From the NCBI RefSeq assembly GCF_038725785.1, contig NZ_CP109796.1:930001-994000 (forward strand): a stretch of DNA of 64,000 nt. Direction: 5' to 3'. The notes under the pieces are model-generated. The model was not told the DNA's origin and did no database searches. It worked only from the letters and a program-made list of their open reading frames with translations. How positions within the stretch are numbered: the first letter of the stretch is position 1; every line of letters starts with the position of its first letter. The position numbers and the translations under genes were made by a program. This DNA comes from Termitidicoccus mucosus (lineage in GTDB: Bacteria > Verrucomicrobiota > Verrucomicrobiia > Opitutales > Opitutaceae). Shown piece after piece: positions 32,400 to 55,308 of this stretch.

Positions 32400-34319
32400 A
32401 TGAAAATCAAACTTAGAAACACCCCCCGTCCCCTGGCCGCGCTCTGCCTCCTCATGCCGGTTTTTGCCCAAGCCGCCGATTGGAAGCCTGCCGGCGACCT
32501 CATCAAGACCCCGTGGGCCGCGCAAGTCTCGCCCGAGTCCCCCCTGCCCGAGTATCCGCGCCCGCGCCTCGTCCGCGACGCGTGGCAAAACCTCAACGGC
32601 CTGTGGGACTACGCCATCACCCCCAAGGGCGCGGCGCTGCCCGCCGCCTTCGACGGCCAAATCCTCGTGCCCTTCCCCGTCGAGTCCTCCCTCTCCGGCG
32701 TGCAACGCGAGGTCGGCCCGGACAACGAACTTTGGTACAAGCGCGAGTTCACCGTCCCCGTTGGCGCCGCATGGCGGGGAAAAAACGTCCTCCTCCATTT
32801 CGGCGCGGTGGACTGGCGCGCCGACGTGTTTGTCAACGGCGCGCCCGCCGGCTCGCACACCGGCGGCTACACGCCGTTCTCGTTTGATATAACAAATTAT
32901 ATAAAAACAGACGTCGCGAACACCCTCGTCGTCCGCGTCTGGGACCCGACGGACGCCTCCGACCATCCCGTCGGCAAGCAGTCGCGCAAGCCCAAGGGCA
33001 TCTGGTATACCGCCGTCACCGGCATCTGGCAGACCGTCTGGCTGGAGCCGGCCCCGACAAATTATATAAAAGACATCCAAGCCGTCTCCAACATCGACAA
33101 CGGCACGCTCGCCGTCACCGTCACCCAAAGGAGCGCGGGCATTCCTGCCCGCGAAATCGCGGACAAGAATGTCCGCGCTCCTGTCGAGGTGGAGCTGCTC
33201 GACAACGACAAAATCCTCGCCACCGCGCGCGGCCACGCCGGCGAAGCCGTGACGCTCTCCCTGAAAAACCCTATCCTCTGGTCCCCCGAAAACCCCAAGC
33301 TCTACGACCTGCGCGCCCGCCTGTTCTCCGGCGAAAAAACCGCCGACGAAGCCCGCTCCTACGCCGCCTTCCGCAAAATCTCCATGCAGCGCGACGCCGC
33401 CGGCATCATGCGCATGCAACTCAACGGGAAAAACTATTTCCACTTCGGACCTCTTGACCAGGGCTGGTGGCCCGACGGATTATACACCGCGCCGACCGAC
33501 GAGGCCCTCCGCTTTGATATTATCAAAACCAAGGAGCTGGGTTTTAACATGATTCGCAAGCACGTGAAAGTGGAGCCGCAGCGCTGGTATTACCACTGCG
33601 ACCGCGAAGGCATCCTCGTCTGGCAGGACATGCCCAGCACGCACAGTTACGGCCTCGGCGCGAAATGGGGCCGCAACGAGCTCGACGGCGGCATAGACAC
33701 GCTGCGTACGCCGCTCTCGAAGGACAATTTTTATAAGGAATGGGGCGAAATCATGGATCTTTGCCAAGGCCACCCGTCGGTGGTGGTGTGGGTGCCGTTC
33801 AATGAGGCGTGGGGCCAGTTTGACACCGACAAAGTGGTCGCCTGGACCAAACAGCGCGACCCTTCCCGCCTCGTGAACCCGGCCAGCGGCGGCAACCTCC
33901 GCATGTATAAGGATGCCGCCGGTGTCCTGCGTCCCTGCGCAGACATGGTTGATTTTCACCATTACCCGGAGCCCAAAATATTCAAGGGCGACGCCGACCG
34001 CGTGCTTGTGCTCGGCGAATACGGCGGCCTCGCCCTCCCGCTGCCCGACCACCTCTGGCAGCGCGACGGAAAGAACTGGGGCTACGGCAAGGTCAAGTTC
34101 ACAGGCCGGGACGACCTCACCGCGAAATATGTCGAATATGCAAACATGCTGAAAGGCCTGGTGAAGGACGGCTTTTCCGCCGCCGTCTATACCCAGACCA
34201 CCGACGTCGAAATCGAGGCCAACGGCTTTTATACCTACGACCGCAAGGTGCTGAAATTCGACCCCGCCGCAGCCCGCGCCGCCAACCTCGAAGTCATCAA
34301 CGCCCTGCCCCATGAATAG
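32400..34319 (+). CDS. Exported GH2 glycosidase carrying an in-frame palindromic insert
   Basis: A 639-residue GH2 enzyme (beta-galactosidase/glucuronidase type) with a signal peptide (PLAALCLLMPVFAQA). The order is standard: sugar-binding jelly roll (WQNLNGLWDYAI, then YTPFSFDITNYIK), an Ig-like domain, then the TIM barrel with the acid/base Glu469 in FNEAWGQ and the nucleophile Glu540 in LGEYGG. The Ig-like domain contains the peptide SAGIPAREIADKNVRAP, encoded by the 52-bp palindrome at 33130-33181. Normal GH2 domains of this type have only a short turn there, so the element adds ~17 residues to a surface loop between two strands and the enzyme may stay functional. Several Tyr-Ile-Lys codons use AT-rich words (ATTATATAAAA, twice). 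Confidence 0.9.
   Translation: MKIKLRNTPRPLAALCLLMPVFAQAADWKPAGDLIKTPWAAQVSPESPLPEYPRPRLVRDAWQNLNGLWDYAITPKGAALPAAFDGQILVPFPVESSLSGVQREVGPDNELWYKREFTVPVGAAWRGKNVLLHFGAVDWRADVFVNGAPAGSHTGGYTPFSFDITNYIKTDVANTLVVRVWDPTDASDHPVGKQSRKPKGIWYTAVTGIWQTVWLEPAPTNYIKDIQAVSNIDNGTLAVTVTQRSAGIPAREIADKNVRAPVEVELLDNDKILATARGHAGEAVTLSLKNPILWSPENPKLYDLRARLFSGEKTADEARSYAAFRKISMQRDAAGIMRMQLNGKNYFHFGPLDQGWWPDGLYTAPTDEALRFDIIKTKELGFNMIRKHVKVEPQRWYYHCDREGILVWQDMPSTHSYGLGAKWGRNELDGGIDTLRTPLSKDNFYKEWGEIMDLCQGHPSVVVWVPFNEAWGQFDTDKVVAWTKQRDPSRLVNPASGGNLRMYKDAAGVLRPCADMVDFHHYPEPKIFKGDADRVLVLGEYGGLALPLPDHLWQRDGKNWGYGKVKFTGRDDLTAKYVEYANMLKGLVKDGFSAAVYTQTTDVEIEANGFYTYDRKVLKFDPAAARAANLEVINALPHE
33130..33181. repeat. 52-bp twin-hairpin palindrome inside the GH2 coding region
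   Basis: The outer arms GGAGCGCGGGCATTC and GAATGTCCGCGCTCC pair at 14 of 15 positions. Each half also folds alone (GCGGGCATTCCTGCCCGC and GCGGACAAGAATGTCCGC). It is 50/52 identical to 54411-54462. Base 1 of the element is codon position 2 in both host genes, giving the same peptide in both. Confidence 0.95.
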
Positions 34320-34332
34320 GACTTCCCTGTAA

Positions 34333-35280
34333 ATGCAATCTACACCCATTAAGAACGGGGCATCGGATAAAGATAATAAAACCGAGGGACGGCATCGCTA
34401 CGGTCTCGGCATCCTGCTGATTATTTGTGCTGTTTTTATATTCTCCATCATGGATGCCCTCGTGAAATACCTTGGGAGCCAGTCTTTAAACTCGATCTAT
34501 ATCATCGGTATTCGTTTCACCCTTACGTTCTTTTGGACCCTGCTCATTCTTAAACCTTGGAAACATCCCGAGGTGACGCGGACAAAGCATCTGGGGCTGC
34601 ATCTCATTCGCGCGGCCTGTATGATTTTCGCGGCATTCACCGTGTTTGTCGCGCTCAAGTATCTCAGCATGCCGGCGATGACGTCCATCGTCTTTGCCGC
34701 GCCATTGATCGTTTCCATTCTGGCCGGTTATTTTCTCGGAGAAAAAATCGGCCCGCGCCGTATTGTCGCGGTGATTATCGGTTTTCTTGGCGTTCTTGTA
34801 GTTACACGTCCAGGCACATCGTTTTTTAGCCTGGCAGCGTTGCTGGCGCTTTTGACAGCGGTGTTGAATGCCTTCTATTCCATGACGACGCGGCGCTTGT
34901 CCGACCACGACAGGCCCGAAACGGCGTTCTTTTACACTGCGCTGGCAGGCATCATCGTCTTGCTTCCCATCCTTCCCTTCTTTTGGGAAACACCAGACTC
35001 ATGGACAATCTGGCTCGCGTTATTTGTTCTCAGTGTACTGAGCACGCTTGCGCATGGCATTTTGACGATTGCGCACAAGTATGCGCCAGCGTCCATTCTC
35101 GCTCCCTTCTATTATGCCCAACTTATTAGCGCGATTTTTTTGAGCGTCATTTTCTTTAAGCAAGTTCCCGATAAATGGACGTTAATCGGTGGATCGATTG
35201 TCGTCGCTTCAGGGCTTTATGTTTTCTATCGCGAACATGTTCGAAAAAAGGAAAAACGCGAAAGTCAATCAGCCCGGTAA
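34333..35280 (+). CDS. EamA/DMT-family permease
   Basis: A 315-residue inner-membrane protein with about ten hydrophobic segments and the two-fold EamA repeat. The first half runs FIFSIMDALVKYLG to VIIGFLGVLVVTRPG (the usual end of repeat one) and the second ends LIGGSIVVASGLYVFYREH. A short Lys/Arg-rich tail follows. The family exports metabolites such as amino acids or S-adenosylmethionine-like compounds; substrate unknown. Base composition is clearly lower in GC than the neighbours and third positions are mixed, which suggests a different history. It starts 13 nt after the GH2 gene and converges on the AraC regulator. Confidence 0.88.
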   Translation: MQSTPIKNGASDKDNKTEGRHRYGLGILLIICAVFIFSIMDALVKYLGSQSLNSIYIIGIRFTLTFFWTLLILKPWKHPEVTRTKHLGLHLIRAACMIFAAFTVFVALKYLSMPAMTSIVFAAPLIVSILAGYFLGEKIGPRRIVAVIIGFLGVLVVTRPGTSFFSLAALLALLTAVLNAFYSMTTRRLSDHDRPETAFFYTALAGIIVLLPILPFFWETPDSWTIWLALFVLSVLSTLAHGILTIAHKYAPASILAPFYYAQLISAIFLSVIFFKQVPDKWTLIGGSIVVASGLYVFYREHVRKKEKRESQSAR

Positions 35281-35337
35281 AAGGCCGCGTCATTTCAACC
35301 GAGGTTTGACGGTGTAATCGGGGTTCCAGATACTGAA

Positions 35338-36264
35338 TTACCCGGAACGGACGAAGTGGTCGGTGAAGCGCTGGCGGTAGCCGCGCGGCGAGATGCCCCG
35401 GTGCCGCTTGAACCAGGTGGTGAATTGCGGCAGGTGGAGAAAGCCCAGGCCGTAGGCAATTTCCTTGATGCTCGCGTCTGTGTTCTCCAGCCGGTCGCAC
35501 GCCACGCGCACGCGGCGGTCGTTCCAGTATTGAAACGGCGTCTGCCCGCGCGCCTCGCGCCAGATGCGGTCGAGCTGGCTGGCGCTCACGCCTCCGGCCC
35601 ACGCGATCTGCCCCCGGTTCCACGGCAGGTTGTCGGGCCAGTTGTCAATGAACACCATGCTCGCGCCCACGCGCGCGTCATACTGGTCCGGCTCGCGGAT
35701 GTGGATGCCGGCCTCGGTCAGGCGCGGATACAGCGCCTCCATCAAGGTCCAGACGAGTTTTTGCAGATGAATGCGATCCTCGAAAGTTTTCGCCGCGTAG
35801 GCGCGGTCGTCGGGTGTCAGGCCGGCAGGATACCGGATGGTGACGTAGTTCCCCACATCGGCGATGGCATCGCGCAACACCGCGTCGCCCCGCATCACAT
35901 GGGCCGGCGGGCCCGCCCACTCGGCGGAGCCGGTGTCCACACCCAGATGGAGCGATTCGATTTGCGAGCCGGGCGTGAACACTTGGTAGCGGCGGCCCAG
36001 CGTATGCGCCATCACCATCCAGTCACCCGCGCCGGCCTCAAGGCTGCGCCCTGTGTATTTGATTTTCACGGCGCCGCGCAACATGTGCCAGATGATAAAA
36101 TTCACCGTCTCAAATGTGCCGGACTGCGTGTTGGGCACGCCCTTGTAATATGAAAGCAGCCGGCAGCGAATAGAGTTCCAGTCGAACTGGCGTCTCGGCA
36201 CGGCTGACGCCGGCATCGGCGGCGAGGTATTCCTTTGTGACTCGGTTTCGACCTGAGTGCGCAT
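35338..36264 (-). CDS. AraC-family transcriptional regulator
   Basis: A 308-residue regulator read on the minus strand. The ATG at 36264 (MRTQVETES) is chosen because the longer frame upstream has no recognisable sequence; no strong Shine-Dalgarno helps. Residues ~30-160 form an N-terminal cupin-like ligand domain (FIIWHMLRGAVKIKYTGRSLEAGAGDWMVM). The C-terminal ~100 residues hold the two helix-turn-helix motifs (WAGGVSASQLDRIWREARGQTPFQYWNDRRVRVA and SIKEIAYGLGFLHLPQFTTWFKRHRGISPRGYRQR). It is divergent to the exported (alpha/alpha)-barrel gene at 36623 and may control that operon from the 358-nt gap. The inducer is unknown but is likely a sugar. Confidence 0.9.
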   Translation of the reverse strand: MRTQVETESQRNTSPPMPASAVPRRQFDWNSIRCRLLSYYKGVPNTQSGTFETVNFIIWHMLRGAVKIKYTGRSLEAGAGDWMVMAHTLGRRYQVFTPGSQIESLHLGVDTGSAEWAGPPAHVMRGDAVLRDAIADVGNYVTIRYPAGLTPDDRAYAAKTFEDRIHLQKLVWTLMEALYPRLTEAGIHIREPDQYDARVGASMVFIDNWPDNLPWNRGQIAWAGGVSASQLDRIWREARGQTPFQYWNDRRVRVACDRLENTDASIKEIAYGLGFLHLPQFTTWFKRHRGISPRGYRQRFTDHFVRSG

Positions 36265-36622
36265 AAAAGGGAATTTTTTTCCAAGTAATGGAAAGTCAAT
36301 CCCGAAAGGAGAACGCTGCTCGTGCGCGCCTCCCGCGCCCGCTTTCCTCCCGTTTCCGCCCTCTCCAAGGAGACCAGCGTCAGGCAAAAAACGAAGGCAC
36401 AAGGATCGCACCGCCAAAATCCGCCATGATGGCAAATGACCGCAGTCACGGTCAGGCCCCCGCACCGATATTATTCAAGCACCTTGAAAAAGAAGATGGA
36501 GTGCATGGGAGGCGGAAGTTGGTGCGCATAAAAATTAAAATTTTGTCGGAAAGTATTAAGCCAAAAAGAATGCAATCCGGATGGCGGGCGGGCATCATGG
36601 ATTGCGTAACTTGGCAAACCCT
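36265..36622. promoter_or_regulatory. 358-bp divergent control region
   Basis: The gap lies between the AraC regulator (minus) and the 36623 operon (plus). TTGTCG at 36543-36548 and AAGAAT at 36566-36571, 17 nt apart, are a possible sigma-70 promoter toward the plus strand. A TGACC/GGTCA dyad (36437-36441 and 36450-36454) may be an operator. No gene is convincing inside. Confidence 0.4.
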
Positions 36623-38884
36623 ATGGACTGTATCCCCGCCATCTTCTCCCCAAAAATTGGGTTCCTCGCATGCGCGTTGATTTTTCTGCCTGACGTTTTT
36701 GCCGGTGCCTCCCCAGCGAGCACACCGGTGAAGGTGAGCGCCCTGAAAAATGCCGCCGGCACGCTTGGCCTCTCGGCATCCAACGCCGGCGAACCCGCCT
36801 CCGTCTCGCAGCCCGCGCCGTTGCGCGTGTCACTCTGGAACGGACGTCCCGATGCCGCGCCCGTCACCCTGCAAGGCGGCTACACCTCGCTGCGCGAGAC
36901 CGCCGCCGGCGACTGGCTCGGCGCCGGTTCGCTGCGCGTGGCGGACGGCGTGACACTTGAGTTCACCGACCGCTGGGACGCCGCACAAAACACCCTGCGC
37001 CTGCGCCGTGAAATTTGCGTGCGTGGCAATGCCTCCGGCGGCTTCACCAGCGTCGCCACCTTCCGTGTCGCGGACGCCCGCCCGTGGCCGGAAATGGAGT
37101 GGTTCGTCCCCGGCATGATTTACGGCAATTTCGACCACATGCGCCCAAACTCCTTCGGGGCGGGCAATTATTATAAACCCGGCGATTACACCGTGTGGAT
37201 TCGCGAGGACCGCATGCCCGCGCCGCTGCTCGCCGCCCGCCTGCCCTCCGGCGCGAGCATGGCCGTGCTCAACTCCGCGCCCGACGGCGCCACCACCGCC
37301 GCCGAGGGCCAAGGCTTCTCCCGCGAGCCGATGGCCGACGCCCGTTTCCGCTTCGGTGCGATCCTCGCCGAGGAGCGTCCCGACGGCACCTCGCTCGGCT
37401 ACGCCTTCCCTGGCTCGGAGGGCACGCTCAGCTATGGGCGCAAAACCGGCGCCGGCCCCGAGACCGCGCAGCAGTGGCGGCATCGTTTCCACCCGCTCAC
37501 GGACGGCTTTGTCCAACGCTACGAGGTCTCCTTCCGTCTCGGCGCCGCCGCCGACACCAACGACCTCGTCGCCCGCTCGTGGCGCTGGGCCTGGGACACG
37601 CTCAAGCCTCAGGTCAATCCGCAGCCCATCGAAACCCTGCGCCGTTGCATGGTGGATGTGCTGGAGGAAAATTTTATCGAAGTCGAGGACCGCGCCGGCG
37701 TGCAATTTCTCGCCCTCGCCGCGCCCGGCGGCAAGCCGCACCCCAACCCGAAAACCATCCTCGGCTTCACCGGCTACGCCCTCGGCTCCGCGGAAATGAT
37801 GCTCGTGGAGGCCAACCGCGAGCCCGCGTCCAAACGCGGGCGCCAGTTGCGCGCCGACGCGGAAAAGGCCATCGCCTCTTTCCTCCGCCGCCCGATCGCC
37901 CCGCCCGTTGACGAGGGCTTTTTGCTCAAAACCGGCGGGCCCGCGCTTTCGACCTGGCCCGCGGCAAAAAAAGTCACCGAAAACCAGCCCATCTATCTGC
38001 GCAGCTTCTGCGACGACATGAAGTCGCTCATGCGCGCTTACGAGCGTGAGGCGCGCGCAGGCCGCCCCCGTCCCGAGTGGCTGGCGTGGGTCAGGCAATT
38101 CGGCGACTGGCTTCTCACGCAGGAGCAGCCCGGCGGCGGTTTCCCCCGCTCGTGGCGCGCCCTTTCCGGCAAACTCCTCGACGCGTCCGCCACGGGCACC
38201 TTCAACGCCGTGCCTTTCTACACCCAGTTGTATCGAATTACAGGATACAAACCCTACCTCGACGCGGCCGTCCGCGCCGGTGAGTTCGCCTGGGGCACCG
38301 GCCACGCCCGCGCCCGCTTCACCGGGGGCACCATCGACAATCCCGACGTGATCGACAAGGAGGCCGCCACCCTCTCGCTCGAAGGCTACCTCGCGCTGCA
38401 CGACGCCACCCGCGATAAGAAATGGCTCGACCGCGCCCGCGCCGCCGCCGATGCCGCCGAGACATGGATGTATATCTGGAACATCCCCATGCCCGCCGAC
38501 GCCGACGGCGAGAAACTCCACTGGAAGCGCGGACAGTCCACCGTCGGCATCCAGCTCATCGCCACCGGCCACTCGCTCAACGACGCCTACATGTGCTGGG
38601 ACGTGGAAAGTTACGCGCGCCTCGCCCGCGAGACCGGCGATCCGCACTACATGGAGGTCGCGCGCATCCTCCTGCATAACACCAAGGCCATGGTCGGCCG
38701 CCCCGGCGACCTGCGCGGCACGCGCGGCCCCGGCTGGCAGCAGGAGCACTGGTGCTTCACTCTCCCGCGCGGTCTCGGCCGCCACCGCGAATGGCTCCCC
38801 TGGGTCACCGTCAGCCATCTGCGCGGCATCAACGACCTCATGGATTACGACCCCGAATTATACAAACAACTCGCCGCCCAATAA
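36623..38884 (+). CDS. Exported beta-sandwich plus (alpha/alpha)-barrel protein of unknown activity
   Basis: A 753-residue protein; the ATG at 36623 gives a signal peptide (IGFLACALIFLPDVFA). Residues ~40-330 are beta-rich (VSLWNGRPDAAPVTLQGGYTSL, MEWFVPGMIYGNFDHMRPN). Residues ~330-750 show repeating helical hairpins with Gly-Asp or Trp turns (YALGSAEMMLVEANREP, WLAWVRQFGDWLLTQEQPGGGFPRSW, YTQLYRITGYKPYLDAAVRAGEFAW, EGYLALHDATRDKKWLDRARAAADAAETW). This is the layout of six-hairpin glycosidases and some polysaccharide lyases. I do not recognise the family and will not name a catalytic residue. It is the first gene of the operon with the TonB receptor, KDPG aldolase and KDG kinase, so a uronate-releasing lyase or hydrolase is a reasonable guess. 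Confidence 0.75.
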   Translation: MDCIPAIFSPKIGFLACALIFLPDVFAGASPASTPVKVSALKNAAGTLGLSASNAGEPASVSQPAPLRVSLWNGRPDAAPVTLQGGYTSLRETAAGDWLGAGSLRVADGVTLEFTDRWDAAQNTLRLRREICVRGNASGGFTSVATFRVADARPWPEMEWFVPGMIYGNFDHMRPNSFGAGNYYKPGDYTVWIREDRMPAPLLAARLPSGASMAVLNSAPDGATTAAEGQGFSREPMADARFRFGAILAEERPDGTSLGYAFPGSEGTLSYGRKTGAGPETAQQWRHRFHPLTDGFVQRYEVSFRLGAAADTNDLVARSWRWAWDTLKPQVNPQPIETLRRCMVDVLEENFIEVEDRAGVQFLALAAPGGKPHPNPKTILGFTGYALGSAEMMLVEANREPASKRGRQLRADAEKAIASFLRRPIAPPVDEGFLLKTGGPALSTWPAAKKVTENQPIYLRSFCDDMKSLMRAYEREARAGRPRPEWLAWVRQFGDWLLTQEQPGGGFPRSWRALSGKLLDASATGTFNAVPFYTQLYRITGYKPYLDAAVRAGEFAWGTGHARARFTGGTIDNPDVIDKEAATLSLEGYLALHDATRDKKWLDRARAAADAAETWMYIWNIPMPADADGEKLHWKRGQSTVGIQLIATGHSLNDAYMCWDVESYARLARETGDPHYMEVARILLHNTKAMVGRPGDLRGTRGPGWQQEHWCFTLPRGLGRHREWLPWVTVSHLRGINDLMDYDPELYKQLAAQ

Positions 38885-38899
38885 CCCCTTTGTCCCGTC

Positions 38900-41800
38900 A
38901 TGAAAAAAACCCTCCTTCCGCCCCGCCTCGTCTTTTTCCTCGTCCTGCTCGCCGCATTTCCGGTCGCCCGTGCTCAAAACGCCTCGACCGGCGCCGTCAG
39001 CGGGCGTGTTTACAACCCCGAGACCGGGGAATACGTCCGCAACGCCCAAATCCGCGCCACGCCCGGCGGCGAGGTCGCCATTTCCGAGCAGGGCGGCTTT
39101 TACCAAATCACCAACCTGCCCCCGGGCGAGGTCACCCTCGTGCTCAGCTACGCCGGTTTCCCCAACGTCACCGTCAAGGCAACCGTCACGACCGGCGCCA
39201 CCGCCACCGTGGATCTCAACCTGCCCGCCGCCGCTCCTTCCGCCACCGCGGGCGCAGGCGCCGCCGGCGAGGTCGTCCAGCTTGAAGCCTTCACCGTCAC
39301 CTCCGACCGCTCCGGGCAGGCCAAGGTCATCATGGACCAGCGCGCCTCCATGAACATCTCCCAGCACGTCGCCGCCGACGTGTTCGGCGACAACACCGAG
39401 GGCAACATCGGCGAGTTCATGCGCAACCTCCCCGGCGTGCTGGTGAACACCTCGGAGGGTGAGGTGACGAACGTCAACCTCGGCGGCCTCGGCGCCGAAT
39501 ACACCAGCGTCACCATCGACGGCATTTCCCTCGCCACCGTCAGCGCCGCCTCAAGCGACTCCCGCGCCGCCAGCTTCTCCGCCATCTCCCTCAACAGCAT
39601 AGACTCGCTCGAAATCTCCCGCACCGTCAGCGCCGACATGGACGCCAACGCCCCCGCCGGCATCATCAACCTCCGCAGCAAGCGCGCGTTCGAAAACAAG
39701 GGCCAGAAAATCGTCGCGCAGGCCAACCTCACCATGCACTCCTCGGCGACGACCCTCGAAAAGGAGCCCGGGCCGCATGACACCAGCGGGATGTTCAAAA
39801 TCCGTCCCGGCGGCCAGCTCCAGTATTCCAATGCGTTCGGCAGGCGTTTCGGCGTCCTGCTCAATGTCAGCGAGTCCAACATCTACTCGGCGGAAAGCCG
39901 CGTCGTGACCAACTACGACCGCCCCACCGCCACCAACAACAACCCCGCCGACCCGCGCGAGGAGGTGCCCCAGTCGTTCGTCTTCCACAACACGACCCGC
40001 CTCAACCGTCGCTTCGCCGGCACCCTCACGCTCGACTGGCGCGCCACCGAGCACCTCACCCTTTCCCTCACCGGCATCTACAATTATTCACGCATGTTCG
40101 GCCTCCAGCGCCCCATCACCTTCTCCACTTGGAGCAGCCAGGGCGGCTCGCGCGCCATGGTGCAGGGCACCGACCCCACCCACTCCATCTACACCATCTA
40201 CGGCTCCGCCGTGACCATAGCCCCGGCGGTCGTCTCGCGCCTGGGCCAGAATATCACCTTCACCCCCAAGTTTGAATACCGTCGCGGCGACTTCAGGCTG
40301 GAGGGCCTCTTCACCTCCTCCGAGGCCAAGGCGTGGTATGACCCGTGGGGCCGCGAGGGCGCCGTCCGCAGCATCGCCAGCCCCGCCGCCTACCACGTGC
40401 TCTACAACGTCTCCCGCGGCCCCGGCCTCACCGACTCCGACTACAAGGTCACCCAGACCGGCGGCCCCGACATGTCCGGCGCCGCCCCCTTCGGCTCTCC
40501 GAAAATCTATCTCCGCGACGGCCGCCAGGCCGTCACCAAAATCCGCACCGCCAGCCTCGATGCCTCCTACCTCACGCGCTTCCTCCTCCCCGTCAAGTGG
40601 AAGGCCGGCCTCAAAATGCGAAACGAAAAATGGCGCTACCGCGACGACAGTGCGCTGAACCTCGCCAACTATACCGGCCCGCTTTCGCTCGGCGACTTCG
40701 CCTCCCCCTACACTTGGGACTCCTACATGAAAGGTGTGAGCCTCACCTCCCTCTCCGGCGGCGGCGTTTTCATGCCCGACCTCTTCGCCCTCGGCGCCCG
40801 CTACCGCGCCCACCCCGAGGAGTTCACGCGCGTCGTCACCGCCACCAATTATTACGACGCCAACGTGCAATACGACCGCAACTTCGAGGAGGACGTCAAC
40901 GCCGGCTACCTCATGGGCATGGGCACCTGGGGCCGCCTCATCTTCCAGGCCGGCGTGCGCCTGGAGGCCACGAAAACCGACATCCGCGAGATTGACGCCT
41001 ACACCCCGGAGCAAACCGAATCCCAGGGCTACGCCGTGGGCGCCGACGGTGTGGCCGCCTCCATCGAGGGCGTGCAGTGGCAGTTCCTCTCCCGCCCCCG
41101 CGTCCACAAGATCAACCGCTACCACGACTACTTCCCCAGCGCCTCCATCAAATACCAGATCACCCCAAAACTCGACCTCATCGTCGCCGCGAACAAGACC
41201 ATCCGCCGCCCCTCCTACTACGACGCCACCGGCATCTTCCTCGTCAACGAGGACACCATGACCGTCTCCTTCCCCAACCGCGCCCTCAAGCCCGAGCGCG
41301 GCACCGGCGCCGCCGTCCGCCTGATCTACTATTTCAAGGGCATCGGCCAGCTCAGCGCCTCTTTCTACCAGACCCGCCTGACCAACATGATCGCCGCCAG
41401 CACCAACCTCACCGCCGTCGATGTCGGCTACGATGAAAGCTACCCCGGCTACAACGAGGACTACGCCACCTACCGCTTCTCCACCAGGAACAACTCCGGC
41501 GCCCCCGTCACCGTCCGCAGCATGGAGCTTTCCTACTCGCAAACCCTCGGCTTCCTCGGGCCGGTGTTCCGCCGCCTCAACGTCCACCTCAACTACACCC
41601 GCGGTTACGCCGACGCCATCAAGCCCATGCTGCCCCCGCACGCGGTCAGCACCGGCTTCAACTACACCTACAAAAAGCTCATCCTCTGGTCCGACCTCAA
41701 CTGGACCGACGACTTCCCCGTCTCCGACACCGGCTACTCCTTCCGCCGCCACCGCACCCAGTTGGACGCCGGCCTCGGCTGGAACTTCGGCAAGGGCTTC

Positions 41801-41956: not shown

Positions 41957-41972
41957 CCAACGAGGAAACCCC

Positions 41973-46730: not shown

Positions 46731-46757
46731 AAATCGGAAAAAATTCCAGTGGATAAC

Positions 46758-47435: not shown

Positions 47436-47465
47436 TCGATCCGATCTCATCCTGCATTCTTCACC

Positions 47466-48557: not shown

Positions 48558-48561
48558 AGAC

Positions 48562-48595
48562 AAAAAGTCCCCGCCCAAACGGGCGGGGACTTTTT
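48562..48595 (+). terminator. Rho-independent terminator after kdgK
   Basis: AAAAAGTCCCCGCCC (48562-48576) pairs perfectly with GGGCGGGGACTTTTT (48581-48595) around an AAAC loop, and a T-run follows. It ends the 36623-48557 operon and separates it from the flavoprotein operon. The A-run on the left lets it work in both directions. Confidence 0.95.
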
Positions 48596-48658
48596 TTGCC
48601 CCGGATGCCACCCGCAACCCATGCGCACCAAAAATAATTTTTCCATCGCCATCGTAAA

Positions 48659-48673
48659 GTCATTCCTCGTGAC
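48659..48673. promoter_or_regulatory. Candidate operator GTCA-N7-TGAC
   Basis: This dyad, within CGTAAAGTCATT then GTGACGGG, lies 72 nt before the flavoprotein start and matches the site before the MFS gene at 24015-24031 in spacing and left half. It suggests one regulator for both units. Confidence 0.4.
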
Positions 48674-48744
48674 GGGAAAAAAGAATCCGGCATCTTGAAA
48701 TTTGCGCACAAAACAGAACAGACCGAGAACCGCATTTCCAAACC

Positions 48745-50385
48745 ATGACACCGCTGCAAGAAATCCAAACCGACGTGCTGGTGATCGGGGCCGGCATCGC
48801 CGGCCTGCGGGCCGGCTTGGCCGCGCGGCGCGCCGGCGCGTCGGTGTTGATCGTCGCCAAGGGCGTCGCGGCGTCGCCGGGTGTCATCGGTTTCAACGCT
48901 CCCGTCGGCTCCGGCGACTCGGTGCATGCGTTCTTCGACGACACTTACAAAGGGGGCCTCGAAATCGCGGACCCGGCGCTGGTGCGGCTGCTCGTGGAAA
49001 ACGCGACGGCGGCGGCGGGCGGGATGGAGGCGCTGGGCCTCCGGCTCGACCGCATGCCGGATCGGACGTGGCATTTGCAAAAAGCCCTTGGTTGTTCGCA
49101 CGCGCGGCTGCTGCACCAGGGAAACCGCACCGCGCGCGTCGGCATGGACGCGCTGGCCCGGGTGCTGGCGAAAGGAGGAGTGGTTACCCGGCACGGAGTG
49201 TTTGTGTCGGAGCTGCTGACCACGCGGACCGGCGCTGTGGCCGGCGCACTGGCGGCGGACTTGCGCGCGCGGAAACTGCTGCTCATCCGCGCCGGCGCGG
49301 TGGTGCTCGCCTGCGGCGGAGGTGGCGGCATCTATGCGGGCGGCACCTACCCGAAAAGCCTGACGGGAGACGGCTATGCGCTGGCGTGGCGCGCGGGCGC
49401 GGAACTGACGGACATGGAGTTTGTGCAGTTCGAGCCGTGCCATTGCATTTTTCCGAAACGCATCGGTCTGAGCACAACCCTGTTCGCGCACGGCGGGCAG
49501 TTGCGGAATGCGCTGAACGAGCGGTTCGTGCTGAAAGAATATCCGGAGGGCGAAGGCTCCGCGCCGAAGGATGCGCTCGCCCGTCTGGTCGCGCTGGAAA
49601 TCAAGGCGGGGCGCGGCACACCGCACGGCGGCGTCTGGTGCGATCTCACCGACATTCCCGAAAAATTCATCAAGGAGGAGCACTCCGCCTATTACAGCCT
49701 GTTCTTGAAACACGGGATTGACCTGACGAAACAACCGCTGGAGGCCGGCCCGGCGCCGCATACGTTTCTCGGCGGCGTGGCGATCAACGCCCGCTGCGAA
49801 AGCACAGTGCCGGGGCTGTTCGCGGCGGGGGAAGTGACGGGCGGCGTCCACGGTGCGAACCGCATCGGAGGCAACGCGGGCACGGACATCTTCGTGTTCG
49901 GCGCGATGGCCGGCGCCAGCGCCGCCGCGTACGCCAGGAGCCGCCGCGCGCGCACGCTGCCCGGCGCGGCGCGGCGCGCGGAAAACTTGGCCGCGCCCCT
50001 TTCGCCCGTCGGCCGATGGGGCCGGTGGAGCATGTTTGCGAGATCCATCCGCGAGTTGATGACGGCCAAGGCCGGCGTCATCCGCGAGGAGACCGAGCTG
50101 CGCGAGGCGGCGGCGGAGTTGCGGGCCATTGACGCCGAGGTCGCGGCCCTCGGTGCGTGCTCGCTGGACGATTTCGCCGGACAAACCGAAATCAGGAATA
50201 TGGCGCTGACGGGCCTTTGCGTGGCGGAGGCAGCGCTGCGCCGGAGGGAAAGCCGCGGCGTGCATTACCGCGATGATTTTCCGGAGCGCGACGACGCGCG
50301 CTGGCGGAAGAGCATTTATCTCCGGCAGGCTGGCGGCCGGCTGCGCGCCGCAGTGCGGACGCGAAGGAAAGGAGCGGGAGCATGA
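48745..50385 (+). CDS. FAD-dependent oxidoreductase, fumarate-reductase/NadB-like flavoprotein
   Basis: A 546-residue flavoprotein. The N-terminal Rossmann motif is VLVIGAGIAGLRAGLAA, and the FAD-binding domain continues with ACGGGGGIYAGGTYP and LTGDGYALAWRAGAELTDMEFVQFEP. The second FAD contact is PGLFAAGEVTGGVHGANRIGGNAGTDIFVFG, a hallmark of succinate dehydrogenase/fumarate reductase flavoproteins and L-aspartate oxidase. The capping domain has THMDRxxR-like elements less clearly. There is no signal peptide or haem/flavin attachment site, so a soluble cytosolic enzyme is expected. It starts the operon; its stop overlaps the next start by 4 nt (ATGA). Substrate unknown; oxidation or reduction of a carboxylated C=C or an imino/amino acid is the family theme. 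Confidence 0.85.
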   Translation: MTPLQEIQTDVLVIGAGIAGLRAGLAARRAGASVLIVAKGVAASPGVIGFNAPVGSGDSVHAFFDDTYKGGLEIADPALVRLLVENATAAAGGMEALGLRLDRMPDRTWHLQKALGCSHARLLHQGNRTARVGMDALARVLAKGGVVTRHGVFVSELLTTRTGAVAGALAADLRARKLLLIRAGAVVLACGGGGGIYAGGTYPKSLTGDGYALAWRAGAELTDMEFVQFEPCHCIFPKRIGLSTTLFAHGGQLRNALNERFVLKEYPEGEGSAPKDALARLVALEIKAGRGTPHGGVWCDLTDIPEKFIKEEHSAYYSLFLKHGIDLTKQPLEAGPAPHTFLGGVAINARCESTVPGLFAAGEVTGGVHGANRIGGNAGTDIFVFGAMAGASAAAYARSRRARTLPGAARRAENLAAPLSPVGRWGRWSMFARSIRELMTAKAGVIREETELREAAAELRAIDAEVAALGACSLDDFAGQTEIRNMALTGLCVAEAALRRRESRGVHYRDDFPERDDARWRKSIYLRQAGGRLRAAVRTRRKGAGA

Positions 50386-51308
50386 GCGTGATGACCGGGC
50401 GGCATGTTCTTCGCGTCTCGGAAATGTCGCGGCTCGCCGCGACATCGGTCGCGCAGGCGGGCGCCGGGCGCGTGCACAGCGTGTTTCACCATTGCTTCAA
50501 TATCACCCGGCCCGATGGCGCCTGGCTCACCGTGGCGTTCATGCCGTTCCCGCGCACGCCGGACGCCATCATCGTGGAGACATGTGCGGACGGGGTTGAC
50601 GCGGCTGATTTTTATTTCTTTCCCGACTTGGAGCCGAGCCTGGCGGCGGAAATCGCGCCGGAAAGAATCGCGGTTCCGGACGCCGGCATCGAAATCGCGC
50701 TCGATGGCGCGGCGCTGTTCGACACGCGCCGGCATCCTTTCCCGCGCGCCGGTCGCGGTCCCGCGCGCGCAACGCGCAACCTCGACACGGCCCGCGCGCT
50801 CATCCGGCGCGACGGACGTTCCTGCGACGCGCCGGAGTTCCGCCGCCGCGCGGAGCCGGCGCTCGCCGCGCTTGCCGCCGCCATCATCGCGGGTGACGAC
50901 ACCGCGACGCGCGCGCACTGCGAGGCGCTGCTCGGGCTCGGCATCGGGCTGACGCCTTCGGGCGATGACATTCTCGGTGGCATCGCAGCGGGTTTGTTCC
51001 TGAGCGACGAAGCAGGGGAACAGAACAGGTTTCTGCCGATGTTGCTGGACTTGTTGCGGGATGACAGGCGAACGACCGATGTGAGCGCGCGCTCCCTGAA
51101 ACTGTGCGCAGATGGCGAGATCAACGACGGCGTTTTCGAGGCGGCCCGCGCCATCCTGTTCGATGACGAGGCTGAGACAAAGCGTGCGGTCTCGTCCCTG
51201 CTCGCGATCGGCCACACGTCCGGCACCGAGACGGCGCGGGGCCTGTGTCTCGGCCTGCGGCTCGCGGAGGAAATTTTTTGCCGGCGCCACGTCGGCGGAG
51301 GAAATTGA
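50382..51308 (+). CDS. DUF2877 protein (YlbF/AllH-like)
   Basis: A 308-residue soluble protein with the DUF2877 signature ARNLDTARALI, then the C-terminal block LLGLGIGLTPSGDDILGGIAAGL. In E. coli the homologous YlbF lies beside FdrA and YlbE, and the three are reported to be needed for carbamoyl transfer from oxalurate to give oxamate. The exact role of this subunit is not known. It overlaps the flavoprotein stop by 4 nt and is followed at 2 nt by fdrA, so translation is coupled. Confidence 0.88.
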   Translation: MSVMTGRHVLRVSEMSRLAATSVAQAGAGRVHSVFHHCFNITRPDGAWLTVAFMPFPRTPDAIIVETCADGVDAADFYFFPDLEPSLAAEIAPERIAVPDAGIEIALDGAALFDTRRHPFPRAGRGPARATRNLDTARALIRRDGRSCDAPEFRRRAEPALAALAAAIIAGDDTATRAHCEALLGLGIGLTPSGDDILGGIAAGLFLSDEAGEQNRFLPMLLDLLRDDRRTTDVSARSLKLCADGEINDGVFEAARAILFDDEAETKRAVSSLLAIGHTSGTETARGLCLGLRLAEEIFCRRHVGGGN

Positions 51309-51310
51309 CC

Positions 51311-52882
51311 ATGCTGATCAAATGCATCATCCGACCAAACGAATATCATGACTCCGTCTTCCTGATGGGCGTGGCCCGCCACGCAGGACAGCTCCCCGGA
51401 GTGCAACGCGCCGCCCTCGCCATGGGCACGGCGATGAACAAGGGCCTGCTCAAGGACATGGAGCTGTTCTCCGACGCCGCCGGCGACGCCGGGCCGAACG
51501 ACCTCGTTATTGCGGTGCGTGTCGCGGACGAGGAGGCGTTTGCCATCGCGAAGGCGGAGATCGAGCGCCGCCTCAAGGAAAAGGCCGCGGTCCGGTCCTC
51601 AGACGGCGGGCTCGGCGGTGGAGCGCGCACGCTCCACACGATCGGGGCCGCCTGCGCCGCCGCCCCGGGACTGAACCTCGCCCTCATTTCCCTGCCCGGC
51701 GAATACGCCGCGGCGGAGGCCGCCAAGGCGCTCTCGCAGGGACTGAATGTTTACATGTTCAGCGACGATATTTCCTACGCCGACGAGGTCATGCTCAAGA
51801 AGCTGGCCCGCGAGAAAAACCTGATGATGATGGGGCCTGGCTGCGGACTGGCGTTTCTCCAGCAGACTGCCATCGGCCTGTGCAGCAAGACGCACTCCGG
51901 CCCCGTCGGGCTGGTCGCTGCGTCGGGCAGCGGCTTGCAGGAGACGATGGTGCAGATTGATCGGCTCGGTCTGGGCGTCTCGCAGGCAATCGGCACCGGC
52001 GGACGCGACTTGCGCGACGAGGTCGGCGGACTCGCCACCTTGCAGGCGCTCGACCTCCTGGAGGCCGACCCGGCCACCACCGTGATCGTCCTGATTTCCA
52101 AACCGCCGGGCGCGAAGACCGCCGCCGCCGTGCTGGAGCGCGTGCGTGCCTGCAAAAAGCCCGTCGTGGTGGATTTCATCGGCGGCTCGCCCGCCGCCGT
52201 CACCGCCGCCGGCGCGCATTTCGCGGCCACGTTCGAGGAGGCCGCGAAGCTCGCCGCCCGTCTGGCCCGCGGAGGGGACGTCGCGCCGCTCAGCGACGAC
52301 GCGGACGCCCGCGCTCTCGCCGCGCGCGAGGCAGCCGGGCTCGCCCCCGGCCAGCGTTACCTGCGCGGCATCTTCTGCGGCGGCACCCTCGCCGAGGAGG
52401 CCATGATGGTCATGCGCCCGCCGTTGCCGGAAATCCACTCAAACACGGCCGTCATGCCGGAGTTCAACCTCAAGGACGCGCTCGTCAGCGAAAAGCACAC
52501 CGTGATTGACATCGGCACCGAGGACTTCACGCGCGGGCGCCCGCACGCCGCCATTGACCCGGCGCCGCGTGTCGAGCGATTTGCAGCCGAGGCCGCCGAC
52601 CCGTCGGTGGCGGTCATCCTGCTCGACTTCCTCCTCGGCTACGGCTGCCACGTCGATCCGTGCGGCATCATGGCCGGCCCCATCCGCGACGCCATCGCGG
52701 CGGCGAAAAAGGCCGGGCGCCGGCTCGCCGTGGTCGCGTCAATCTGCGGCACCGAACTCGACCCGCAGCGCGCCTCCGCGCAACGGGAAAAACTCGTCGC
52801 CGCCGGTGTGATCGTCATGCCCGGCAACGCGCAGGCCGCTCGATTCGCGGGCATGATCGCCGCGTCCGCCTCGTCCAAATAA
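51311..52882 (+). CDS. fdrA: FdrA-like acyl-CoA synthetase-fold protein (AllF-like)
   Basis: A 523-residue protein of the FdrA family, related to succinyl-CoA synthetase subunits. The ATG at 51311 has a good Shine-Dalgarno (GGAGG at about 51297) and sits 2 nt after the previous stop. The N-terminus MLIKCIIRPNEYHDSVFLM is typical of FdrA. The CoA-ligase-like half holds MMMGPGCGLAFL, GLVAASGSGLQETMVQIDRLG, GTGGRDLRDEVGG and VIVLISKPPG. The second half has IDIGTEDFTRGRPHAAIDP and LLDFLLGYGCHVDP. In E. coli it is one part of the fdrA/ylbE/ylbF group. Here it probably forms a complex with the neighbours; the carbamoyl or acyl substrate is unknown. Confidence 0.92.
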   Translation: MLIKCIIRPNEYHDSVFLMGVARHAGQLPGVQRAALAMGTAMNKGLLKDMELFSDAAGDAGPNDLVIAVRVADEEAFAIAKAEIERRLKEKAAVRSSDGGLGGGARTLHTIGAACAAAPGLNLALISLPGEYAAAEAAKALSQGLNVYMFSDDISYADEVMLKKLAREKNLMMMGPGCGLAFLQQTAIGLCSKTHSGPVGLVAASGSGLQETMVQIDRLGLGVSQAIGTGGRDLRDEVGGLATLQALDLLEADPATTVIVLISKPPGAKTAAAVLERVRACKKPVVVDFIGGSPAAVTAAGAHFAATFEEAAKLAARLARGGDVAPLSDDADARALAAREAAGLAPGQRYLRGIFCGGTLAEEAMMVMRPPLPEIHSNTAVMPEFNLKDALVSEKHTVIDIGTEDFTRGRPHAAIDPAPRVERFAAEAADPSVAVILLDFLLGYGCHVDPCGIMAGPIRDAIAAAKKAGRRLAVVASICGTELDPQRASAQREKLVAAGVIVMPGNAQAARFAGMIAASASSK

Positions 52883-52901
52883 AAACAGAAAGGAATTTGT
52901 C

Positions 52902-54341
52902 ATGATCACAAACCCAACCCTTCCCCTTTCCACTCCGGTCAAGGCGGTGAACATCGGCGCAGAACTGTTTGCCGACGCGCTCCGCGCGCAGGGCATCGAG
53001 ACCGTGCAGTTGCAGTGGCGCCCGCCGCCGCCCGAGGTACTCAGGCACCAGCTTGCGCTGACGCAACTCCTCGCCGGAAGCCACGCGAAACACATCGCCG
53101 CCGCCAACGTCCGCGCAACCGAAACGCTGCTCGCCGCCGATCCGTGGTGGATTGACATGAAGCCCGCCATCGAGGTCGTGCCCGGTCTGAAGAAAAACAT
53201 GATCCTCAAGTCCGGCCCGCCGCTGTCTTGGGAAAAATCCTGCCCCACGCAGCAAAACGGCGTGGTCAACGGCATCCTCCACGAGGGCCTCGCCGCCTCC
53301 GCCGACGAGGCCACCGCCCTTATCCGGTCCGGCAAGGTCGAGGTCGCCTCCGCCAACGACTACGCCATCGTCGGCCCCGGCGCCGGCATCCTCACGCCGT
53401 CCATGATCGTGAACGTCGTCGAGGACCGCTCCACCGGAAAACGCGGCTTCTGCGCCCCCTTCGAAGGGCCGAACCAGGGCGGCCTCTGCGGCTGGGGCAC
53501 CTACAGTCCCGAAATCCGCGCATTTCTCCACGAGCTCAACGACACCATCGGCCCGCTCCTCTCCCGCGTCCTCCGCGCCGAGGGCGGCATCGCCATCCGC
53601 CCCATCATCACGCGCGGCGTCGAGATGGGCGACGAAACCCATACGCGCCAGGACGCCGAGGGGCTCATCCTCATCAACCGCCTCCTGTTCCTGCTCATGA
53701 AGCACGCGCCGGACGCCTCGCCCGCGCGCGGCGCCTGCGTGGACTTTTTGGAAAAGACCGAGCGCTTTTTCCACCCCGTCGGCATGGCCTCCGCCATGGC
53801 CACGGCGCAGTCGCTCAAAAACATCCCCGCCTCCACCGTCGTCACCGCGCTCTGCGGCAACGGCGTCGAATACGGCATAAAAATCAGCGCCCTCGGCGAC
53901 CGCTGGTTCACCGCGCCCTCGCCTCAGCTTACCGGCATGTATCTCGCCTCCGACGCGAAACCCGGGGACACGCTGCCGTGGATCGGCGACAGCTCCGTGC
54001 TGGAGTCAATCGGTCTGGGCGGTTTCGCTGCCGCCGCCTCGCCCGCCGTCGCGCGCCTGCTCGGACGCACCTTCGCCGAGGCCGTTGCCCAGTCGCGCGA
54101 GCTGGCCGAAATCTGCCTGGCCGCCAACCGCAACTTCCTCGTGCCCGCGCTCGACTACACCGGCTCCCCGTCCGGCATAGACATCCTGAAAGTGCTCTCC
54201 ACCGGCATCCTGCCCGCCATCCACGGCGGCATGATCTCGCGCACCGGCCTGCGCGTCGGCGCCGGCGTGGCCCGCGTGCCGTTCGCCTGCTTCGCCAGCG
54301 CGTTTGAAACCTACGTAAACCAGCCCACCCAATCCCTATGA
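52902..54341 (+). CDS. DUF1116 protein (YlbE/AllG-like)
   Basis: A 479-residue soluble protein of the DUF1116 family. Diagnostic blocks are NIGAELFADALRAQGIETVQLQWRPP, PWWIDMKPAIEVVPGL, SGPPLSWEKSCPTQQNG, VASANDYAIVGPGAGILTPSMIV and FEGPNQGGLCGWGTYSPE. It is the usual partner of FdrA. Its stop (TGA) overlaps the next start (ATGA), so it is coupled to the SDR gene. An AAAGGAATTT Shine-Dalgarno-like stretch precedes the start. No carbamate kinase, the expected consumer of carbamoyl phosphate in E. coli, lies in the window. Confidence 0.92.
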   Translation: MITNPTLPLSTPVKAVNIGAELFADALRAQGIETVQLQWRPPPPEVLRHQLALTQLLAGSHAKHIAAANVRATETLLAADPWWIDMKPAIEVVPGLKKNMILKSGPPLSWEKSCPTQQNGVVNGILHEGLAASADEATALIRSGKVEVASANDYAIVGPGAGILTPSMIVNVVEDRSTGKRGFCAPFEGPNQGGLCGWGTYSPEIRAFLHELNDTIGPLLSRVLRAEGGIAIRPIITRGVEMGDETHTRQDAEGLILINRLLFLLMKHAPDASPARGACVDFLEKTERFFHPVGMASAMATAQSLKNIPASTVVTALCGNGVEYGIKISALGDRWFTAPSPQLTGMYLASDAKPGDTLPWIGDSSVLESIGLGGFAAAASPAVARLLGRTFAEAVAQSRELAEICLAANRNFLVPALDYTGSPSGIDILKVLSTGILPAIHGGMISRTGLRVGAGVARVPFACFASAFETYVNQPTQSL

Positions 54342-55273
54342 AACCCGCCAAAGCCAACAACAGCCAAACCACCATCGCAAAAAATGGCGCGAACGTCCCG
54401 CCCTCGAACGGGAGCGCGGGCATTCCTGCCCGCGACATCGCGGACAAAAATGTCCGCGCTCCCAAAAACGCCGCCGTCCGCGCCGGCGAGTTCGCCGGCA
54501 AGGTCGTCCTCGTCACCGGCGGCGCCCAAGGCATTGGCGAGGGCGTCGCGCTTGAGTTCGCTCGCGCCGGCGCCGATGTCGCCTTCACCTATCTCGGCGC
54601 CAATTCGAAAAGCCGCGCCAAGGCCGTCCGCACCGCCGCCGCCCTCCGCAAGCTCGGTGCGCGCGTCGTCTTCGACGCCGTGGATGCCACCAGCGAACAG
54701 GCGGCGGAGGCCTTTGTCGTCCGCGTCCTCGCCGAACTCGGCCGCGTTGACGTCCTCGTCAACAATGTCGGCGGCGCCGGCACCGTGCCCGAGGGCGGCT
54801 TCGTCGGCCTGCCTCTCGACTACTGGCGCTCCCAGCTCGACAAAAACTTCTTCAGCGCCGTCATCTACGCACGCCTCGCCGTGCGGGACATGCTGCGCCG
54901 CCGCTCCCCCGGCGCCGTCATCAACATCGGCACCATCCACACCGCCAAGGTCTTTAATACCCGGTTCGTCCCCTATTCCTGCGCCAAGCAGGCCATGAAC
55001 CAGCTTACCCGGGACCTTGCGGTCGAACTCGCCCCGCAAAACATCCGCGTAAACTGCATCGCCCCCGGCCTGATCAAAACCGCCCTCACCAAATGGCGCT
55101 ACGACGCCGCCTGGTGGGCCGACGTCAATCAGCGCATTCCCATGCGCCGCCCGGGCTCGCCCGCCGAGATCGGCAAGATCGCCCTCTTCCTCGCCTCCCC
55201 GCGCTCCAGCTACCTCACCGGCCAGATCATCTACGTCGATGGCGGCGGCGCCGACGGCGGCTGGAAACTTTGA
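54338..55273 (+). CDS. Short-chain dehydrogenase with palindrome-derived N-terminal extension
   Basis: A 311-residue SDR. The Rossmann core begins late, at GKVVLVTGGAQGIGEGVALEFA (residues ~54-75), and contains NNVGGAG, the active-site YSCAK (Tyr214, Lys218) and NIRVNCIAPGLIKT. The final YLTGQIIYVDGGG is standard. The usual catalytic Ser position reads NIGTIHT, so Thr may replace Ser. The first ~50 residues are not part of the fold; they hold SAGIPARDIADKNVRAP, encoded by the 52-bp palindrome at 54411-54462. Because the start overlaps the previous stop (ATGA), the extension is probably translated. It may oxidise a sugar to its lactone, given the neighbouring MBL hydrolase and dehydratase. Confidence 0.9.
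   Translation: MKPAKANNSQTTIAKNGANVPPSNGSAGIPARDIADKNVRAPKNAAVRAGEFAGKVVLVTGGAQGIGEGVALEFARAGADVAFTYLGANSKSRAKAVRTAAALRKLGARVVFDAVDATSEQAAEAFVVRVLAELGRVDVLVNNVGGAGTVPEGGFVGLPLDYWRSQLDKNFFSAVIYARLAVRDMLRRRSPGAVINIGTIHTAKVFNTRFVPYSCAKQAMNQLTRDLAVELAPQNIRVNCIAPGLIKTALTKWRYDAAWWADVNQRIPMRRPGSPAEIGKIALFLASPRSSYLTGQIIYVDGGGADGGWKL
54411..54462. repeat. 52-bp twin-hairpin palindrome inside the SDR coding region
   Basis: Identical to 33130-33181 except for two bases (one changes Glu to Asp, one is silent). The arms extend by one more pair (G54410/C54463). It is read in the same frame as the copy in the GH2 gene and lies upstream of the folded domain. Confidence 0.95.
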
Positions 55274-55308
55274 TCTTCCCGCCCCTCTCGCGAAAAGGAA
55301 ATCCAATC

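Follow-up and report, generated by a model that had tools for sequence, protein, structure and literature searches.

A REPIN-like, mostly intragenic family of hairpin repeats, probably RAYT-associated, in Termitidicoccus mucosus

The window analysed here, a 64,000-nucleotide stretch of Termitidicoccus mucosus DNA (positions 930,001-994,000 of contig NZ_CP109796.1, assembly GCF_038725785.1), carries two near-identical copies of a 52-bp palindromic element, one inside a gene for a glycoside hydrolase family 2 (GH2) glycosidase and the other inside a gene for a short-chain dehydrogenase/reductase (SDR). Sequence comparison makes it very probable that this element represents a family of non-autonomous mobile hairpins that resembles REPINs, the paired form of repetitive extragenic palindromes (REPs), lies mostly within genes and is associated with a REP-associated tyrosine transposase (RAYT). 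We refer to its 24-nt half-unit as REP-A. The two copies and their host genes are arranged as follows.

32400-34319, plus strand: host gene 1, GH2 glycosidase, 639 aa
33130-33181, plus strand: REP-A doublet in the GH2 gene, with the peptide SAGIPAREIADKNVRAP
33130-33153, plus strand: left REP-A half-unit of the GH2 copy, with GGAG tag, 8-bp stem and 4-nt loop
33158-33181, minus strand: right REP-A half-unit of the GH2 copy, inverted, with a 4-bp spacer between the halves
54338-55273, plus strand: host gene 2, SDR oxidoreductase, 311 aa, with the element in its lengthened N-terminus
54411-54462, plus strand: REP-A doublet in the SDR gene, with the peptide SAGIPARDIADKNVRAP
54411-54434, plus strand: left REP-A half-unit of the SDR copy
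54439-54462, minus strand: right REP-A half-unit of the SDR copy, inverted

The copies at 33130-33181 and 54411-54462 are identical at 50 of 52 bases and are read in the same frame, and both proteins contain SAGIPAR(E/D)IADKNVRAP, confirming an earlier note that had reported a twin hairpin with a common frame and peptide at these two places. Each REP unit consists of GGAG followed by CGCGGGCA-TTCC-TGCCCGCG, and two such units face each other in inverted orientation, most commonly across a 4-bp spacer. Each arm of either copy is a separate hairpin with an 8-bp stem behind the GGAG tag, and the whole element folds near end to end (-41.0 and -37.6 kcal/mol for the two window copies; z -8.4 and -7.3). 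Both copies are open in all six frames. Chance repetition was ruled out, as 100 shuffles yielded no match to either arm.

A search of the window's own genome (hereafter G000; 7.92 Mb), allowing up to 3 mismatches, identified 102 REP-A half-units, 52 forward and 50 reverse, while the reversed pattern used as a control returned none. The surroundings of 100 of these half-units, comprising 72 clusters and 514,559 bases, were analysed with gene calls from a home-made hexamer model rather than the annotation, with REP-A masked in training and scoring. Plain inverted doublets make up 28 of the 72 clusters; 52 clusters lie inside called genes and 20 are intergenic. In a similar analysis of the same genome, the sister repeat family REP-B (GGAGCGCCGGCATCCTGCCGGC; 76 half-units) had 11 of 54 clusters in genes (Fisher p 1.1e-8), which makes REP-A unusual within its own genome, with the proviso that the REP-B clusters derive from a slightly different, stricter pattern, from loci of 1.5-2 kb rather than 3 kb per side and from joining over 130 rather than 60 bp, and that the repeats on either side of REP-B's own RAYT, inside a called open reading frame (ORF), supply two of the 11 genic cases. 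In a family-level survey at up to one mismatch, REP-A was present in 5 of 150 genomes: G000 (83), its congeners G077 (55) and G046 (7), G102 (17), which belongs to another genus of the same family and in which all 17 half-units listed have a variant loop, and G042 (1). A class-level survey, at up to one mismatch to the main form, likewise gave 5 of 384 genomes, with 49 matches in the window's own genome and one to three in each of the other four. Within these samples, it is only in the window's genus that REP-A reaches high numbers.

The candidate transposase comes from G077, where a Y1_Tnp gene (C87:3580-3795, minus strand) is located between exact inverted copies of REP-A at 3433(+) and 4178(-), all within about 0.77 kb. 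Its product resembles the TnpArep structure 4er8 (E 6e-4) and scores 79.2 bits against the NCBIfam model REP_Tyr_transpos, just below the cut-off of 80. RAYT genes are described as always flanked by two inverted REPs (PMC2817692). The REP-A family most likely has, or had, a RAYT of its own that has been lost from G000 or has remained unassembled there. G000 also contains two intergenic REP-A pairs in each of which about 115 bp of unrelated sequence separates the inverted half-units (C1:76437-76598 and C1:3731507-3731669), and no RAYT remnant was seen between the half-units of these pairs (C1:76437/76575 and 3731507/3731646), either in the sequences or among the blastn matches listed.

Several other genes of this type were observed. 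REP-B has its own RAYT at C1:1041019-1041246, between perfect inverted REP-B copies at 1040906(+) and 1041566(-), which constitutes a complete REPtron in G000. Another Y1_Tnp gene, in the vicinity of C1:275495-276256, has hairpins on both sides, some with GTAG/GTGG-like tags, and a RAYT-like gene near C1:2928140 and 2929055 lies between two identical GGGCGGCG hairpins that run in the same direction instead of being inverted. The single, incomplete genome G102 holds 42 Y1_Tnp matches in addition to the REP-A variant (17 half-units).

The nearest kin of REP-A are the RAYT-associated REPs. REPINs are defined as inverted REP doublets in extragenic space (PMC3116915), and REP-A shares with REP/REPIN-RAYT systems (PMC2817692, PMC3116915, PMC8266576) its tagged short hairpins, its inverted doublets that fold as one, its high copy number and the presence of a RAYT gene between two inverted copies, the last in G077 and not around the seven Y1_Tnp matches of G000. 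It differs in its tag, GGAG in place of GTAG, in its commonest spacer of 4 bp and in its location, since REPs are mostly extragenic, and because most of its clusters are genic we use the terms REPIN-like and RAYT-associated for it and do not class it as an ordinary REP. The verrucomicrobium Opitutus terrae has been described as carrying REPs and REP dimers in genes, where they encode 20-30 residues, although these have a GTAG tag (mostly GTGG in one family) and most are intergenic (PMC3733652); in-gene palindromes, which the earlier note did not know to be described in Verrucomicrobia, are therefore on record there. That note had also likened the element to the Rickettsia palindromic elements (RPEs), which measure 105-146 bp and lie in frame in 19 reading frames (PMC2229807). 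REP-A, like RPEs, occurs in frame in many unrelated, conserved genes (PMC2229807, PMC3733652), and the likeness stands as far as this manner of working is concerned; it fails for membership, as REP-A is 52 bp long with a longer variant, occurs in Opitutaceae, has a RAYT adjoining it in a congener and is REPIN/RAYT-like in structure and transposase. The Correia/NEMIS elements of Neisseria offer a further parallel, with an open-frame version that enters genes and a stop-bearing version that is almost wholly intergenic, but they are larger miniature inverted-repeat transposable elements (107 and 155 bp) that end in inverted repeats and duplicate their target site (PMC2229807). Among the titles and abstract openings of a partial literature collection, no publication was found on the GGAG family or on a frame bias of intragenic REPs.

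The host genes are diverse. A Pfam scan covering 40 of the 49 distinct G000 hosts, the large ones in part, left two of the 40 without a family, and the hosts include GTPase Der, Tex, ScpA, adenylosuccinate lyase, a Cons_hypoth95 methylase (which we take to be RsmD), a YjeF/carbohydrate-kinase protein, a disulphide oxidoreductase, AMP-binding enzymes, glycosidases, autotransporters and a TonB plug protein. The element constitutes extra sequence between the two GTPase domains of Der (compared with 2hjg), in Tex (compared with 2oce) and between the two blocks of the disulphide oxidoreductase that align with 5x1y, and is close to the point where the structure alignment of the Cons_hypoth95 methylase breaks. 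Among 12 genomes, the Der linker contains REP-A in G000 and G077 and other inserts in G046 and G102; the remaining eight have a short linker. A paralogue neighbouring the polysaccharide-lyase-4-type host at C1:4904925 is free of the element and has CCCCAAAGGGGCGGC in place of CCCAAAGGAGCG plus the insert, among other differences. Element-free homologues, mostly distant, were found within the fetched loci for 13 of 97 genic entries in the three genomes G000, G077 and G046. Over-called ORFs or wrongly placed start codons might also generate apparent genic copies, an explanation that fits the 13 of 52 genic copies lying at most 40 aa from a called start and the host at C1:6140238 (461 aa, score 125), whose coding score is poor around the element. 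We consider it barely credible as a general account, given that the element was masked in both training and calling, that coding signal is present on either side of 33 unique copies, that Der, Tex and GH2 show conserved sequence on both sides of the element, and that the SDR gene has no other usual start ahead of its domain.

The two hosts in the window illustrate how the element is accommodated. In the GH2 protein it occupies approximately residues 244-261, within PF00703 (residues 222-325), and aligns with structure 7sf2 as extra sequence in a loop of the second domain. Homologues have a shorter loop at this position: the window protein reads TLAVTV, 20 residues including the element and VEVELLD, versus TLAVTV and 7 residues in G046 and in G002 and G051, two genomes of another genus. 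These alignments bear out the placement in a loop of this domain that the earlier note had proposed, and the loop is presumably exposed on the surface, as it had also suggested. The copy is common to three paralogues that are 94-95% identical, most simply through a single insertion event, and the peptides of the three differ at one position (K, C or W). In the SDR protein the element spans approximately residues 25-42, ahead of the SDR domain (PF00106 from residue 55), in agreement with the N-terminal extension previously suggested. In this gene, as in its G051 orthologue, the start ATG and the stop codon of the gene upstream overlap, and no alternative in-frame ATG, GTG or TTG precedes the VTGG motif, so that the element would be translated if the protein is made from a usual start. 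The peptide, whose natural presence in distant homologues would have counted against the earlier note's reading, is missing both from the 12 GH2 homologues that were aligned, all from other genomes, and from the one SDR orthologue inspected, that of G051, which is 78% identical and has an N-terminus 32 residues shorter. On the minus strand, three terminator-like patterns (consensus matches) occur at window positions 54389-54489, near the SDR copy, one of them overlapping its edge.

Genic copies show a pronounced preference for one reading frame. Of the 75 genic half-units in G000, the SAGIPAR/ADKNVRAP frame (hereafter the favoured frame) accounts for 62, the GARAFLPA/TRMSAL frame for 11 and the ERGHSCPR/QECPRS frame for 2. 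With two of the three GH2 paralogues dropped (reducing 52 genic copies to 50), 39 of 50 independent copies lie in the favoured frame throughout (p 1.2e-10 against 1/3), as do 27 of 33 under a strict count demanding coding signal on both flanks. The G077 analysis comprised 60 clusters, on contigs with places at no more than one mismatch (several 2-mismatch places among the 87 half-hits were left out), and 29 of its 38 genic copies are in the favoured frame. For ten of these 38, the host region finds a match among the G000 hosts at 55% identity or more across 60 aa, and these copies may be inherited; once they are removed, 21 of the 28 non-shared copies are in the favoured frame (p 8e-6 against 1/3). 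For G046, where 8 places (8 clusters) of 21 half-hits were analysed, the count is 6 of 7, with some hosts shared. The earlier note's proposal of an element that spreads within genes while tolerating their translation is supported, and the frame preference on which it had made its reading depend is present in two species.

The flanks of intergenic copies, too, are non-random. The bases preceding GGAG in 53 intergenic half-units of G000 and G077 are ACA in 23, AAA in 11, CCG in 7, TCA in 5, ACG in 3 and others in 4. TnpAREP is described as cleaving at CT or CA adjoining the repeat (PMC8266576), and by analogy such cleavage may be the source of the CA before GGAG. A target-preference model built from these intergenic flanks only and projected on coding sequence predicts the favoured frame for 0.58-0.60 of sense and 0.40-0.44 of antisense insertions, compared with 0.33; a good share of the frame bias is explicable by target-site preference. 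It is conceivable, if not what we would expect, that the bias is mechanical throughout, the transposase preferring ACA/AAA-type targets that fall mostly in one codon phase in a GC-rich genome, with no selection on the peptide. The preference seen in intergenic flanks speaks for this, as does the fact that the non-shared G077 copies taken alone do not exceed 0.603 (p 0.079). The pooled non-shared copies, however, do exceed this highest expectation (60/78, p 0.0015; strict 41/50, p 9e-4), and the ERGHSCPR/QECPRS frame is used by 3 of 95 unique genic copies (any half, three genomes), whereas about one fifth of sense insertions would be predicted to use it. The excess beyond target preference is modest.

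Fitness for coding is also visible in the doublets themselves. All six frames are free of stops in 42 of 50 distinct doublets, compared with 732 of 5000 random 54-mers from the window and 244 of 5000 shuffles, and with one flanking base per side the length is divisible by 3 in 42 of 50, usually being 54 bp. REP-B doublets are fully open in 9 of 16 cases and a multiple of 3 in 8 of 16, and openness alone therefore does not explain the contrast between the two families. Spacer length in the genic copies of G000 (n=23) is 1 mod 3 in 19, 2 mod 3 in 4 and 0 mod 3 in none, the intergenic spacers being too few for a frame test (n=5 in G000, two of them 0 mod 3; six of six 1 mod 3 in G077). A longer version, in which the second half has a longer loop, accounts for 19 of 86 single-half clusters in G000 and G077, 16 of these 19 being in genes; across three genomes, the recognisable half of the longer version is in the favoured frame in 16 of 19 genic cases, and many are read through in frame.

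Variation within the stem bears on whether the DNA or the peptide is being maintained. Over 194 halves from three genomes, pair 10-19 is G-C in 117, A-T in 67, G-T in 7 and other in 3, and pair 12-17 is A-T in 155, T-A in 26 and other in 13. In the 98 genic halves in the favoured frame, pair 10-19 is G-C in 51, A-T in 42 and G-T in 5, although exchanging one pair for the other changes the middle base of two codons in that frame (Gly to Asp and Ala to Val). What is maintained is therefore the pairing and not the peptide, though a picture indistinguishable from selection on pairing would also arise if two source variants were being copied. In G000 and G077, T-A at pair 12-17 occurs in 11 of 27 genic off-frame halves, compared with 4 of 98 favoured-frame and 10 of 53 intergenic halves.

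The recurrence of the peptide in dozens of proteins of two congeners could in principle reflect a functional adaptor or localisation tag placed by selection in many proteins, the other option raised by the earlier note. We regard this as highly improbable, and an adaptor function was rejected because the hosts are unrelated, with no evident common pathway or compartment, because relatives lack the peptide and because its sequence is variable (SAGIPAR or SADIPVR, and K, C or W in the GH2 paralogues); the intergenic location of 20 of 72 clusters and the retention of DNA pairing while codons change also speak against it. A regulatory role at the RNA or DNA level (as terminator, mRNA stabiliser or gyrase site), for which the in-gene position would be incidental, draws on the strong RNA hairpins predicted by folding, on such roles having been proposed for REPs (PMC3733652) and on a terminator scan of positions 52800-55400, which found 7 sites versus 2.4 in shuffles, including two minus-strand sites beside or overlapping the SDR copy. 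We judge it very improbable as well, as many copies lie mid-gene at varied positions, homologues are free of them, and no Rfam match at gathering score was found in 32000-56000.

Several findings weigh against a REPIN-like, mostly intragenic and RAYT-associated family. Forty-four of the 72 clusters show one recognisable half, some with the longer second half, and the genic share of 52 of 72, though high beside REP-B, is below the random expectation set by the called-coding fraction of the 514,559 bases examined (88.6%; p 1e-4). The tag is GGAG (in some cases GGGG), where GTAG is normal for REPs. No REP-A was found beside any of the seven Y1_Tnp matches of G000 (stretches of about 10 kb; assembly 96.5% complete), and the nearest G000 relative of the G077 RAYT is 47% identical and is accompanied by other hairpins. 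Set against the highest expectation of 0.603, the frame count of G000 (39/50) gives only p 0.006, and the non-shared copies of G077 give p 0.079 (21/28), or p 0.049 under the strict count (14/17). Finally, the precise insertion sought in the earlier note, which would here be one of 54 bp, did not emerge, as no exact empty site was found: the GH2 protein has 20 residues for 7 (net +13) and the SDR N-terminus is 32 residues longer. The alignments nevertheless indicate that, even without an exact empty site, the element was gained in this lineage.

On the REPIN-like, RAYT-associated account, which we favour, a RAYT (a Y1/HUH transposase of the IS200/IS605 superfamily) would most likely copy REP-A in trans, in the form of a single-stranded hairpin. 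We infer that a RAYT of the G077 type moves REP-A, and likewise infer the manner of insertion and the production of the peptides. A stop-free unit of 54 bp inserted in a gene would often leave an open protein with some 18 extra residues, and insertions would persist where a spacer is tolerated, in linkers, loops and termini. Survivors would lie mostly in the frame of the Cys-free SAGIPAR.DIADKNVRAP, a frame already favoured by ACA, AAA, ACG or CCG before GGAG, and the peptide would be a by-product rather than a function. More tentatively, and rather doubtfully, REP-A might be a transposable hairpin adapted to translation, usually stop-free in all six frames, usually a multiple of three in length and guided by its choice of targets to the frame of a benign peptide, which would colonise genes, a location largely avoided by REP-B, and lengthen linkers such as that of Der. 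REP-A brings together two kinds of element that are generally considered separately, the REPIN/RAYT mobile hairpins, defined as extragenic, and the Rickettsia-type coding palindromes. We know of no transposase for the latter, and the candidate transposase in a congener makes the spread of coding palindromes testable outside obligate intracellular bacteria. REP-A insertions would also offer a route by which new sequence enters the linkers of conserved proteins.

A third palindromic repeat, near GTAGCGCAGGCATCCCTGCCTGCC, is scattered in the stretches of G000 examined, at C1:79500, 1914699, 3182157, 3724736 and 6045618.

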